The notes below the pieces were generated by a model. That model saw nothing but the letters and a program-made list of their open reading frames with translations. It was not told where the DNA came from and made no database searches. Positions 44,612 to 48,035 of a stretch of 62,064 nucleotides of DNA are shown in pieces; the first letter of the stretch is position 1, and every line of letters begins with the position of its first letter. Where the stretch lies: assembly GCA_013286835.1 (NCBI GenBank), contig JABDEZ010000004.1:1-62064 (forward strand), read 5' to 3'. The translations under genes and the position numbers were made by a program. The DNA comes from Bacteroidota bacterium. Lineage in GTDB: Bacteria; Bacteroidota; Bacteroidia; Chitinophagales; Chitinophagaceae.

Positions 44612-45076
44612 GTGAAGGGAATAACGACAGATGGGCCAACCCCAAATTACAAAAGGGATAAACGGTCACCTATACCTAAAAACGCAACAGTTTCGAAGGT
44701 GATGAGCAGGATCAAGAGCTCAAACACCAAACCCGAAGTTGCGTTCCGAAAAATGCTGTCTTCCAATGGTATTCGAGGGTATAGGATAAATTATAAGAAG
44801 CTACCAGGTAAACCAGACATCGTATTTACGAGGAAGAAGTTAGCGATTTTTATAAATGGGTGTTATTGGCATGGATGCGAAACATGCGGATGGAAGCCTC
44901 CCAAACATAATACAGAATATTGGGTAAGTAAAATCCAAAAGAACAAAATTCGTGATGCTGACAAACGTGCGGCTCTAACGTTATTGGGGTATACCGTTAT
45001 TGTAGTTTGGGAACATGATCTTAAAACAAAGATGGATCGACTTGCCGAACAAATGATTTCTACATTATCCTCTTGA
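44612..45076 (+). CDS. vsr: Very short patch repair endonuclease
   Basis: A 154-residue Vsr nuclease: MSRIKSSNTKPEVAFRKML (family start, Asp/Glu region), PGKPDIVFTRKKLAIFINGCYWHGC (catalytic Asp and the aromatic wedge region), the Zn-binding C..C, and the tail VIVVWEHDL. Vsr nicks next to T:G mismatches caused by deamination of 5-methylcytosine, matching the adjacent C5 methyltransferase. Start: a GTG at 44612 keeps the RDKRSPIPKN leader seen in relatives; a later ATG at 44702 would shorten it. The 3' end overlaps the convergent nuclease gene by 17 bp. Confidence 0.9.
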   Translation: MKGITTDGPTPNYKRDKRSPIPKNATVSKVMSRIKSSNTKPEVAFRKMLSSNGIRGYRINYKKLPGKPDIVFTRKKLAIFINGCYWHGCETCGWKPPKHNTEYWVSKIQKNKIRDADKRAALTLLGYTVIVVWEHDLKTKMDRLAEQMISTLSS

Positions 45077-45620
45077 AAATCTCATTCCTAATATCAAAGA
45101 TATAACTGTCCTTAGCATTTCCTTTAGTGTCATTTACACGCTGCTGATACTGGTGAATTTGAGACTTTTCAAGAAGGGTGAGGAGATCACTGAATGAGGC
45201 CTTGTAAATCCCGAAATGAGGCTGGGCCTCGTAAATCCTACCACCTATTTCGGCTTTGACGGGTATCCAATCAACAAAATATAGGGTGTCAATGTCAGGA
45301 TATTTGTTCTCATATCTCTCTCTATCCTTTACATTGAAAACGACTGCAAATGTTGGGTCTATATTGTAGCGTACTTTAGCTTGAAAGAAAGGGGAGTGTT
45401 GTGTCTTCAAGTCGGCAAGCTTTTGGCTCTCTGTCGAGATTAGATCAGGCACAAACGCGTTGGTGGACTTCTCTGGGTTAATGGCATACTTGATTGTCTC
45501 GCCATATTCTCTCACAAACCCGTGCTCCATTGACTCACCTTTTTTACACCAGGCCAACTTGTTCTGCAGGTCGTAATTATTAAAAACGACACCTTTATTA
45601 TCATATAATATTGTTGCCAT
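45060..45620 (-). CDS. Second PD-(D/E)XK-like nuclease of the restriction operon
   Basis: From the Met at 45620 (186 residues) the gene follows the SinI-like gene with a 5-bp gap; a longer reading from 45647 would overlap it. The core reads FVPDLISTESQKLADLKTQHSPFF: P58-D59 then D70-L-K72, a PD-x10-DxK nuclease signature with a following Gln. Conserved surroundings include VVFNVKDRERYENKYP and YFVDWIPV. I know similar sequences from phage and prophage contexts but no named enzyme. It could be a subunit of the restriction enzyme, a second nuclease or an accessory factor. Confidence 0.6.
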   Translation of the reverse strand: MATILYDNKGVVFNNYDLQNKLAWCKKGESMEHGFVREYGETIKYAINPEKSTNAFVPDLISTESQKLADLKTQHSPFFQAKVRYNIDPTFAVVFNVKDRERYENKYPDIDTLYFVDWIPVKAEIGGRIYEAQPHFGIYKASFSDLLTLLEKSQIHQYQQRVNDTKGNAKDSYIFDIRNEIFKRIM

Positions 45621-45625
45621 TTTTT

Positions 45626-46345
45626 CTATTTGTGGATATAAACACAATCTGGATTATTATTGATGGTAGTAGCAACGAACGCTCTAAAATCTTTTTCTGA
45701 AATGGTATGATCCACGGTCATCTTTATCAAGTCGTCCCACCGATAAGTGTCAGCCTTCGTTGATACTCGTCTGTACCACTTCTCAATGCTGGTGCCTATC
45801 CGAACAGCACTACTTGACGAGTTTTCGGAATTATCGCTTGTCTTAACCTGAAGCAAAGTACCATTGTCGTTGATAAAATCTACAGATTTTACAGTAGTAC
45901 CCCAACAGCATCTCCATCCATGTGCTGCAAGCTTTCCAGATAGATACTCTTCCAGCATATCTCCTACGATGTTCTCTATCGTCATCATGGTTGAATGCCC
46001 CGCAGCCACGATTTCAACTACTTTGTCCTCAAGGTGTGGATGAAGTTTGTGGTATATCTCTTTCATTAGGCTGTCGGCTACTGTATTCGACGGGTTGCCT
46101 CTTCTTTTTGAGGGTCTATTTTCGTAGCCGTTAATGTACTTTGTGACCCACTTTTTTACATATTCATCCAAATCTACGATTTCAACTTTCTTATTCTTGA
46201 TTGGTATCAGGAGATTATTGCTCAAAGCAATGCAGAATATTGAGGTCATGTCGGTCATGAAGTTAGCACCAGCAGCAGCCTTTATGGCTGTATCGATTTG
46301 CTCCCCCGTGTACTCGGCGCCATGGAAATCGTAGTTCATAGTCAT
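45626..46345 (-). CDS. SinI-family type II restriction endonuclease
   Basis: A 239-residue protein whose central part (GHSTMMTIENIVGDMLEEYLSGKL..HGWRCCWGTTVKSVDFI, then LLQVKTSDNSENSSSSAV and GTSIEKWYRRVS) follows the SinI-type restriction endonuclease family. The catalytic core is D-F-I...Q-V-K, a PD-(D/E)XK variant with Gln in the E position. SinI itself cuts GGWCC; the specificity here is not proven. It lies 26 bp after the methyltransferase gene in the same direction, so methyltransferase then nuclease, then the second nuclease form one operon. Confidence 0.8.
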   Translation of the reverse strand: MTMNYDFHGAEYTGEQIDTAIKAAAGANFMTDMTSIFCIALSNNLLIPIKNKKVEIVDLDEYVKKWVTKYINGYENRPSKRRGNPSNTVADSLMKEIYHKLHPHLEDKVVEIVAAGHSTMMTIENIVGDMLEEYLSGKLAAHGWRCCWGTTVKSVDFINDNGTLLQVKTSDNSENSSSSAVRIGTSIEKWYRRVSTKADTYRWDDLIKMTVDHTISEKDFRAFVATTINNNPDCVYIHK

Positions 46346-46371: not shown

Positions 46372-47805
46372 CTAAAAACCTAACTCCAAATTATATGTAG
46401 TTTTTTTATTGTGAAATGATTTTACTTGACTTAGAAAGTCTTTTTCGAAATCGACATCGGATGTATTGGTATAACGAGAGTAGCGGAAATTTTCGAATTT
46501 CTTGGTGGTTTTATTTTTAAAATGGTTTATGATCTCAGTGCCTATTGCGTAACCTAAACCTACTGGAACTGCATTGCCTATCTGCCGATATTTGTCAATG
46601 GTTGTACCTTGTATAGCCCATTCGTCTGGAAACTGCTGTACACGCTTATATTCCTCTACCGACAACGGTCTGTCCTCTGTAGGATGGGCCAATTCAGTTG
46701 CAGGCATAGCAGGATGAGTTACGAGGGTAGGTGCAGGCCTGTCCCATGCCAACCTTCGATAGAAACCCGTTTTACCCCCACCGAGATGATACGAGTTGCC
46801 CATTGCCTCTGGTTGAATTTCTGGAGGGAGATCGCGCCAGTTCTGCCCGGGCTTTAGGAGCTTTATATATTTAAGCCTCTTTTCCGAAAAATTTACGTGT
46901 TCTACCTTTTCGTTGTCGAGTCCTTTTACTGCGTCTTTGAAAGTGAGCCACTTGCCCAGGCCATCAGTACCTTCCTGGTTATGTGAGGGTGTGAGATAAG
47001 GTACTTTTTCGTGAAGTAGCGTGCAGACTATTACGACACGTTCCCTTATTTGCGGAACTCCGAAGTTTGCTGAACTATATAGGTTGAATGTAATCCTATA
47101 TCCTGCACTTTCAAGTCTCTTCGTTACGTAGTACAGCGAAGAGCCTGAGAAATCCTTAGGGTCAAAGGTGAATGATTTTGTTATCTCGTCGTTGACATCA
47201 ATGCCCATAGGAGTTGACATAAGCCCCCTCACGTTTTCTATAACCGCATACTTCGGCTTGATTGTAGTTATCAGGTCAATAAATTTTAGAAATACGTTTC
47301 CCCTTTCATCCTGAAATCCCATTCGTCTACCTGCGGTACTGAATGCCTGACAGGGAGGCCCGCCGACAATTACGTCTACTTGCTCACTCGATTGAAGATT
47401 GGCATACTTTAAAATATCCTCTGCACTATAATCGAGTACGTCACCAATTAGGCCTACATTTTCTTCATTTTTCAAGATAGTCTTCCTTGAAGCTTCATCT
47501 TTTTCACATGCCATTAGCACGTTCATGCCGGCGCGTTCGAGTCCAATGTCAAGGCCCATAGCTCCAGAGAAAAAAGACAGAACGTTAAGTTTACTCTTAG
47601 AGTGTTTCCGCATTGAAATTCTATCCTCGGTCTTACCCACTGATGCTTTTTTGAGATCTTCGATTGTTATTTCTTCAATTACCTCATCCGGGACGAGCCA
47701 CGTATGACCGATACGCTCGGCTTGAATTTTTCCGGCTTTAATTAAGCGCCTTACGTATTGTTCTGAGCATTTAAAATGTTCTGCGACCTCGGTGACTGAT
47801 AGCAT
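46372..47805 (-). CDS. C5-cytosine DNA methyltransferase with N-terminal helix-turn-helix
   Basis: A 477-residue methyltransferase. Residues 1-50 are an excisionase/MerR-like DNA-binding domain (LSVTEVAEHFKCSEQYVRRLIKAGK...RIGHTWLV). Residues ~73-440 are the catalytic domain: motif I FFSGAMGLDIGLE (78-90), motif IV GGPPCQAFS (catalytic C152), motif VI VIENVRG, motif VIII-like VPQIRERVVIV, motif IX/X at the end (QIGNAVPVGLG). It protects host DNA from the SinI-like enzyme. A palindrome lies 8-23 bp upstream of the start codon, suitable for its own N-terminal domain. It would thus set its own level, doing the work of a separate C protein. Divergent from xseA. Confidence 0.9.
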   Translation of the reverse strand: MLSVTEVAEHFKCSEQYVRRLIKAGKIQAERIGHTWLVPDEVIEEITIEDLKKASVGKTEDRISMRKHSKSKLNVLSFFSGAMGLDIGLERAGMNVLMACEKDEASRKTILKNEENVGLIGDVLDYSAEDILKYANLQSSEQVDVIVGGPPCQAFSTAGRRMGFQDERGNVFLKFIDLITTIKPKYAVIENVRGLMSTPMGIDVNDEITKSFTFDPKDFSGSSLYYVTKRLESAGYRITFNLYSSANFGVPQIRERVVIVCTLLHEKVPYLTPSHNQEGTDGLGKWLTFKDAVKGLDNEKVEHVNFSEKRLKYIKLLKPGQNWRDLPPEIQPEAMGNSYHLGGGKTGFYRRLAWDRPAPTLVTHPAMPATELAHPTEDRPLSVEEYKRVQQFPDEWAIQGTTIDKYRQIGNAVPVGLGYAIGTEIINHFKNKTTKKFENFRYSRYTNTSDVDFEKDFLSQVKSFHNKKTTYNLELGF

Positions 47806-47812
47806 AATTATG

Positions 47813-47828
47813 GTTTCGATTACGAAAC
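47813..47828. promoter_or_regulatory. Putative autoregulatory operator of the methyltransferase operon
   Basis: GTTTCG-ATTA-CGAAAC, a perfect 6-4-6 inverted repeat ending 8 bp before the methyltransferase start codon (reverse strand). It sits where a repressor would block transcription or translation of the operon. The N-terminal helix-turn-helix of the methyltransferase is the obvious candidate ligand. Confidence 0.5.
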
Positions 47829-48035
47829 TAAATTATTATACCCAACCCGGGTACAAAAACAAGAAATTTAATTGTCATAAATTCAGCATGGCAGCCAGCC
47901 AAATATATTGTATCAAATAATTGTTGCATGAATCTGCAAAGGACTTCCACTATCTTTACTTGAAATTAAGTCTATTGTACTCGCGTTTGACTCCATGCTA
48001 TTTAAAGATAAACGGCATACACTAACAAACATCTA

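Follow-up and report, generated by a model that had tools for sequence, protein, structure and literature searches.

C5-cytosine DNA methyltransferases of several restriction–modification (R–M) systems, including EcoRII, SsoII, Ecl18kI, ScrFI and MspI, are described as repressing their own genes through an N-terminal helix-turn-helix (HTH) domain (PMC3978073, PMC3695355, PMC3874152, PMC12707154). The SsoII HTH has been modelled on the phage 434 repressor, its site is printed as GGACAAATT GTCCT, and the SsoII-type mutants R35A and R38A are reported to be unable to regulate (PMC3695355, PMC3978073). In SsoII-like systems, the methyltransferase (M) and restriction endonuclease (R) genes are described as having facing, competing promoters (PMC3874152). 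Self-repressing HTH-fused C5 methyltransferases are already known, and the enzyme analysed here appears to differ from the SsoII type in its HTH and in its operator. In the open-licence literature, REBASE apart, none of the titles and abstract openings listed described a C5 methyltransferase with an HTH_17 or MerR head and an operator.

Here we analyse a locus in a 62,064-nt stretch of DNA (the window; positions 1 to 62,064 of contig JABDEZ010000004.1, assembly GCA_013286835.1) from a Bacteroidota bacterium of the Chitinophagaceae. By its architecture and its operator-like dyad, the methyltransferase of this locus fits among the HTH-fused regulatory C5 methyltransferases, and operator binding and self-repression are predicted for it. 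Like M.SsoII and M.Ecl18kI as described in PMC3695355 and PMC3978073, it is a C5 methyltransferase with an N-terminal HTH and an inverted repeat by the M promoter; two protein molecules are reported to bind each site in those systems, and we propose the same for the window enzyme. Unlike the SsoII-like enzymes, its HTH is of the HTH_17/excisionase rather than the Cro/C1 (434-repressor-like) type, and in place of GGACAAATT GTCCT between divergent M and R genes, the window has GTTTC-N6-GAAAC with M and R in tandem. M.EcoRII, M.ScrFIA, M1.LlaJI and M.MspI, which we liken to it by description, are reported to be autorepressors (PMC3978073), as we propose here. In CfrBI, LlaDII and AhdI, the methyltransferase also controls its own gene but is reported to do so by promoter methylation (PMC12707154, PMC3874152); unlike in such control, neither GGWCC nor GGNCC occurs within 200 bp upstream of the window M gene. 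R–M systems under C-protein control likewise use an HTH and an operator, but in the window the HTH sits within the methyltransferase, and no separate C gene is found among the operon ORFs of at least 70 amino acids.

Domain structure of the methyltransferase

The methyltransferase gene (46,372..47,805, minus strand; ATG at 47,803–47,805) encodes 477 amino acids, of which residues 74–426 form the DNA_methylase domain (Pfam PF00145, E = 1.4e-56; also dcm, TIGR00675). The original prediction that the enzyme begins with an excisionase-like HTH, of another type than that of M.SsoII, holds in both respects: residues 1–45 (47,671..47,805, minus strand) match the winged HTH_17 family of Pfam (E = 1.9e-8), and the excisionase-family DNA-binding domain TIGR01764 of NCBIfam agrees (E = 2.6e-8). 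In an AlphaFold2 model built from a 15-row alignment (mean pLDDT 86), the head consists of helices 4–11 and 15–23, a wing of strands 30–32 and 35–38, and a helix 40–45; residues 54–58 are of low confidence. The predicted recognition helix (residues 15–23) includes Q16 and R19, which occur in 18/18 and 17/18 HTH-fused proteins, respectively, the window enzyme counted in. The PADLOC MTase_II model PDLC03272 covers residues 3 to 441, so the HTH–methyltransferase architecture already lies within a described family of models.

Relatives of the window system

A tblastn search of plasmids and phages identified HTH-fused relatives adjoining SinI-type endonucleases in Lactiplantibacillus, Klebsiella, Treponema, Pseudomonas saxonica, Ligilactobacillus and Streptococcus phage YS162 (46–51% identical). 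The Klebsiella record is unannotated, and its endonuclease was taken to be a 230-amino-acid ORF whose partners in tblastn carry SinI-family annotations. Further relatives came from a scan of viral contigs with an alignment of the plasmid and phage relatives, in which 80 loci were kept of 149 confirmed and upstream DNA was read for 18 of the 80. The count of dyads described below leaves out L054 (no HTH in frame), L055 (contig begins at the ATG), L067 (start unclear), L003–L006, L131, L133 and 60 of the 80 viral-contig loci; the HTH-less controls were extended by L062 and L066. The HTH-fused methyltransferases are 41–79% identical to one another, except for L049 and L050 (97%). Among the 12 HTH-less controls, L061/L062 and L064–L066 are near-copies, so these rows represent fewer independent ones. 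RE_SinI is rare, occurring in 1 of 395 genomes sampled from the window's phylum, namely the window's own. Searches of E. coli genomes for relatives and viral scans with L043 and ORF3 (see below) as queries found none, and scans with L051, L057 and L046 gave no new locus matching over the HTH.

Conservation of the dyad

The palindrome GTTTCG-ATTA-CGAAAC (47,813..47,828) is a perfect 6+4+6 repeat located 7 bp upstream of the methyltransferase ATG; the original prediction was right about the exact repeat at the gene start and placed it one base too far, at 8 bp. We denote its core, GTTTC-N6-GAAAC, the dyad. Taken alone, the palindrome is unremarkable and not above chance: when 40-bp stretches are drawn at random from the window, 4.5% (loop of up to 4) or 7.3% (loop of up to 10) of them contain a perfect repeat with 6-bp arms, so the site's having been called unusually clean carries no weight by itself. 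The 2.67-Mb assembly of the organism (69% complete) contains one GTTTCG-N4-CGAAAC site and three of the backwards-read pattern. GTTTC-N6-GAAAC is not enriched there either (three sites, compared with six for the reversed pattern), and a wider regulon is therefore unsupported. A 9/10 match to the dyad also lies inside the methyltransferase gene (47,604–47,619), 186 bp past its start, and L055 has one at +151; the internal match could be a second site or chance.

It is conservation, rather than the palindrome itself, that carries the case. We scored GTTTC-N6-GAAAC, as taken from the window, on the −80..+15 regions of other genes, with a threshold of at least 8/10 letters. The dyad reaches this threshold in 11 of 16 other HTH-fused genes, every time between −32 and +10 of the start codon, and in none of the 12 HTH-less relatives; on this sequence evidence the original observation is confirmed, the dyad being conserved upstream of homologues that have the same HTH. 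The dyad-bearing genes come from Klebsiella, Pseudomonas and Treponema plasmids and from viral contigs. All ten letters match in L039, L051 and L063, nine in L040, L041, L053, L056 and L057, and eight in L048, L052 and L059; shuffle P values for these 11 single regions range from 0.00025 to 0.10 (L048, 0.06; L052, 0.10). Below the threshold are L043, L050 and L049 (7/10; in L049 elsewhere in the region) and L038 and L042 (6/10). Among these five, R19 is lost only in L042, the sole one of the 18 HTH-fused proteins to lack it, whose head also falls under the HTH_17 cut-off and whose gene has no dyad and carries GGWCC 64 bp upstream of its start. The correspondence is loose in both directions: L051 has an exact dyad, yet its head is under the HTH_17 cut-off too, and L038, L043, L049 and L050 have R19 but not the full dyad. 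In L002 (1022–1163), from the cyanobacterial relative Zarconia, the later half of the HTH can still be aligned to the reading frame that precedes the likely ATG, perhaps a decayed head.

Because the threshold and the region could favour any AT-rich dyad, we scored all 13,312 dyads (1,024 arms of 5 nt × 13 gaps of 0–12) in the same manner. GTTTC with a gap of 6 (11/16) tied for first with TTTCG with a gap of 4, which is the same site shifted, against a mean over all dyads of 0.62 (s.d. 1.15), and it scored 0/12 in the HTH-less genes. With one row kept per 70%-identity cluster, it ranked first (9/12); two AT-only dyads also reached at least 8 letters in nine rows, but at least 9 letters in only four and one rows, compared with six for GTTTC/6. 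Outside start regions, matches of at least 9/10 are scattered, eight in roughly 230 kb, close to the hand-estimated expectation of seven for uniform sequence. In the aligned sites, columns average a pairwise identity of 0.82 within the arms, 0.36 across the six central positions and 0.33 over 60 flanking columns, and 10 of the flanking columns are as high as the lowest arm column or higher; as the arms were picked by match, this contrast is a description and not a test. T2, T4, C5, G12 and A13 of the dyad are kept in 12/12 aligned rows. On a catalytic-domain tree, HTH presence requires five changes and dyad presence eight, and L045, with neither HTH nor dyad, is the well-supported sister of L041 and L053, which have both. 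A tree-controlled test found two independent HTH-differing pairs on well-supported branches, with the dyad concordant in 1.8 of them on average, a result that is not significant and, with only two such pairs, could not have been.

Position of the dyad relative to the promoter

A lenient scan places a weak candidate −10 box, TATAAT (47,835..47,840, minus strand), 6 nt before the dyad in the window, and a weak TTGTTT (47,857–47,862, minus strand) 16 nt further up; a stricter tool scan found no sigma-70-type promoter at this gene. The Bacteroidota −7 box, which we take to be TAnnTTTG, would presumably fit TAATTTAG, which ends on the first base of the dyad. In the Klebsiella relative (L039), TTGACT-17-TATGAT, a good sigma-70 match, ends 3 nt before the dyad; in the Treponema relative the last bases of the −10 box fall within the dyad, which also covers the start codon; and TATAAT precedes the dyad by 14 nt in L056 and by 12 nt in L057. 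By the best matches of the lenient scan, the dyad would lie over the predicted transcription start in 5 of 12 dyad-bearing genes (window, L039, L040, L048 and L052) and 5–11 nt past it in another five (L051, L053, L056, L057 and L059). The scan could not be used for L041, where its sole match is poor and far off, or for L063, where it has no match, and L158, in which no methyltransferase start is annotated, was omitted. Two features here were flagged as terminator-like, the dyad on the plus strand and an adjacent stem on the minus strand; we rejected an intrinsic terminator here, as the M gene and an xseA-type gene upstream of it diverge from this region and need none.

Alternative roles for the dyad

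The self-repression that we favour has to be weighed against other roles for the dyad. Were it to act in the transcript, as a 5′-leader hairpin masking the start region, control would be translational and the DNA would hold no operator. The leaders of the window and of L039 do fold better than shuffled sequences (z = −2.5 and −3.1, respectively), with the hairpin of the former extending to the start codon, but 9 of the 11 leaders folded (those of the 12 dyad-bearing rows except L059) have z above −1.1. Covariation within the dyad is not above that of shuffles (0.086 versus 0.108), the outermost pair is broken in 5/12 rows and the innermost in 7/12 while the half-site letters stay, and in L040 and L052 the dyad sits over the start codon itself. 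That 80.6% of dyad cells pair, more than in slid versions, is expected of any dyad. A protein reading two half-sites fits these patterns better than a conserved RNA hairpin would, and we consider a hairpin mechanism very unlikely; as a general conserved feature it is rejected, given the lack of covariation and the leaders that mostly fold like shuffles, although the window taken alone may differ. Coincidence between a palindrome and ribosome-binding-site composition has in its favour the frequency of equally good palindromes in the window (4.5–7.3% of 40-bp stretches) and the overlap of the right arm with a purine-rich, Shine–Dalgarno-like stretch in L056, L057 and L059. The left arm, GTTTC, has no ribosome-binding role and yet is kept, and the rank of 1–2 among 13,312 dyads and the 0/12 controls leave this explanation barely credible.

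The dyad might instead be the site of another, host-encoded regulator, with the fused HTH helping the enzyme to find or hold DNA, or serving a similar purpose. HTH_17-like domains also act as excisionase and recombination factors. Compared by sequence with the PDB, the head finds its best match in phage Gp37 (E = 0.17), and the link between HTH and dyad is one of sequence association. Against such a regulator, the dyad accompanies the HTH from the window to Pseudomonadota and Spirochaetota plasmids and to viral contigs and is absent from all 12 HTH-less relatives, and the pattern is not enriched in the organism's own assembly; we regard this possibility as very unlikely. If the fused HTH does bind the dyad, it could activate the M gene, or both activate and repress it, as C proteins with HTHs are described as doing (PMC3874152, PMC12707154). 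The positions given by the lenient scan, over the predicted start or 5–11 nt after it, are repressing ones, and matches of at least 9/10 elsewhere have the scattered, roughly chance density noted above, so that activation seems to us quite improbable. Self-repression of the M gene is, by comparison of these sequences, a well-supported inference.

Neighbouring genes

As originally predicted, a SinI-like endonuclease lies downstream: the R gene (45,626..46,345, minus strand) follows the M gene in tandem after a 26-bp gap and encodes a 239-amino-acid protein matching RE_SinI (PF09570, E = 3.3e-36, over the cut-off). RE_SinI endonucleases with adjoining C5 methyltransferase partners are common to the SinI type II R–M family, of which the members L044, L046 and L047, unlike the window branch, have neither a fused HTH nor the dyad. 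We take the specificity of SinI to be GGWCC, and by family membership the window system would presumably share it.

A third ORF (ORF3; 45,060..45,620, minus strand; 186 amino acids from its ATG) begins 5 bp after the R gene and overlaps by 17 bp a convergent gene for a Vsr mismatch endonuclease (44,612..45,076, plus strand; PF03852, E = 5.3e-24; TIGR00632, E = 2.1e-34, over the cut-off), which is convergent with the operon. ORF3 matched no family in Pfam or NCBIfam, and its one PADLOC match, to JetC, is weak and partial (E = 0.0063). It has four homologues on plasmids, all in large Pseudomonas plasmids; at the two loci opened, the homologues lie away from R–M genes, one of them directly after dnaE. 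With no nuclease family in the searches made and these two homologues away from R–M genes, a nuclease role for ORF3 is unsupported. The second nuclease that had been placed in the operon is thus not borne out, the recognisable one, Vsr, being encoded on the opposite strand.

With R following M on the same strand after 26 bp, repression at the M promoter should throttle R also, unless R has a promoter of its own. The idea of a self-timed restriction operon stands as far as the tandem M and SinI-type R genes are concerned; a delay of R is not demonstrated, and the arrangement should rather give homeostasis and an M-first order. The orientation of R to M varies among relatives, being convergent in L038, L039 and L040 and divergent in L041, L042 and L043, and in L051 the HTH-fused M is adjoined by an EcoO109I-type enzyme. 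Where present, the dyad keeps to the start of M, wherever R is placed (window, L039, L040 and L041).

Other heads and promoter methylation

A second family, found in the window's bacterial family and phylum, carries a MerR-like head on a C5 methyltransferase of around 412 amino acids, which adjoins an Eco47II-type enzyme at the one locus checked. At its start codon lies TAACCA-N19/20-TGGTTA, with at least 10/12 letters in 15/15 loci (L009, L010, L012–L014, L016, L017 and L138–L145) and 12/12 letters in 12; as the loci are 71–99% identical and the counts raw, this is weaker phylogenetic evidence than it looks. The repeat was first noticed in L009, L010, L014 and L016, and the other 11 loci are independent of that noticing. 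Three HTH-less relatives fall short, with 8–9/12 letters: L011 and L015, which at 68–78% identity are as close to the MerR family as the dyad-bearing L144 and L145, and the remote L018 (29–34%). A single example, a methyltransferase on an Aerococcus plasmid (L156, 1027–1054), combines a head of Cro/C1-like type (HTH_3, marginally below the cut-off) with a palindrome of 11-bp arms, GGGTTATTAAT-N6-ATTAATAACCC, two bases after TATAAT.

GGWCC occurs within 200 bp upstream of 4 of 7 HTH-less genes (drawn from the 12 controls), compared with 1/17 HTH-fused genes. GGACC, the likely methylation target, lies upstream of M in the head-less or head-degenerate relatives L042 (−64), L044 (−23), L046 (−57), L047 (−58), L060 (−54) and L147 (−65). 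L042, L047 and L147 have TGGACC 17 nt ahead of a −10-like hexamer, as, weakly, does L046. Among nine further relatives with Eco47II/PmeII-like methyltransferases, GGNCC is found upstream in L147 only. L044, L046 and L047 form one clade, and the tree needs only three changes to account for the upstream GGWCC. That promoter methylation controls the HTH-less branch is a post hoc idea, which we keep only as a lead.

These families together allow a broader reading, which we hold tentatively and somewhat doubt: that GGWCC/GGNCC C5 methyltransferases may be a chassis to which different heads, HTH_17, MerR-like or, in one example, Cro/C1-like, have repeatedly been fused, each with its private operator at the gene start, some head-less members having GGWCC in the promoter instead. 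If this were true, self-control would be what is conserved, achieved by devices that can be exchanged; and since unmethylated genomic sites would attract the same molecule, an occupied operator could signal that methylation of the host is complete.

Discussion

A methyltransferase with a fused HTH_17 head has a dyad at the start of its gene, and the dyad is conserved together with the head. The recurrence of the dyad before distant relatives with the same head suggests that the enzyme throttles its own production. We consider it likely that the methyltransferase is a dual-function protein, paired heads of which would bind the dyad so that M represses its own gene. From the sequences we infer that the enzyme binds, in what stoichiometry, and that it represses rather than activates, as well as where transcription starts and how R is affected.

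In the proposed mechanism, two fused HTH_17 domains would bind the half-sites GTTTC and GAAAC, whose centres are 11 bp apart; as this is about one helical turn, the half-sites would be on one face of the DNA. With the dyad over or just past the transcription start, the bound enzyme would block RNA polymerase. In a new cell, the free promoter would give a burst of M, and as M accumulates it would shut down its own promoter to a steady level, with the output of R, in tandem behind M here, throttled along with it.

Methyltransferase-first control is what allows a cell to survive the arrival of a restriction system. The head and its operator, kept across distant hosts and mobile elements, would form a self-contained control module, which differs from the SsoII type in protein and DNA site alike. 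The association also gives a sequence rule for the family: an HTH_17 domain fused to a methyltransferase of this C5 clade predicts GTTTC-N6-GAAAC at the start of its gene.
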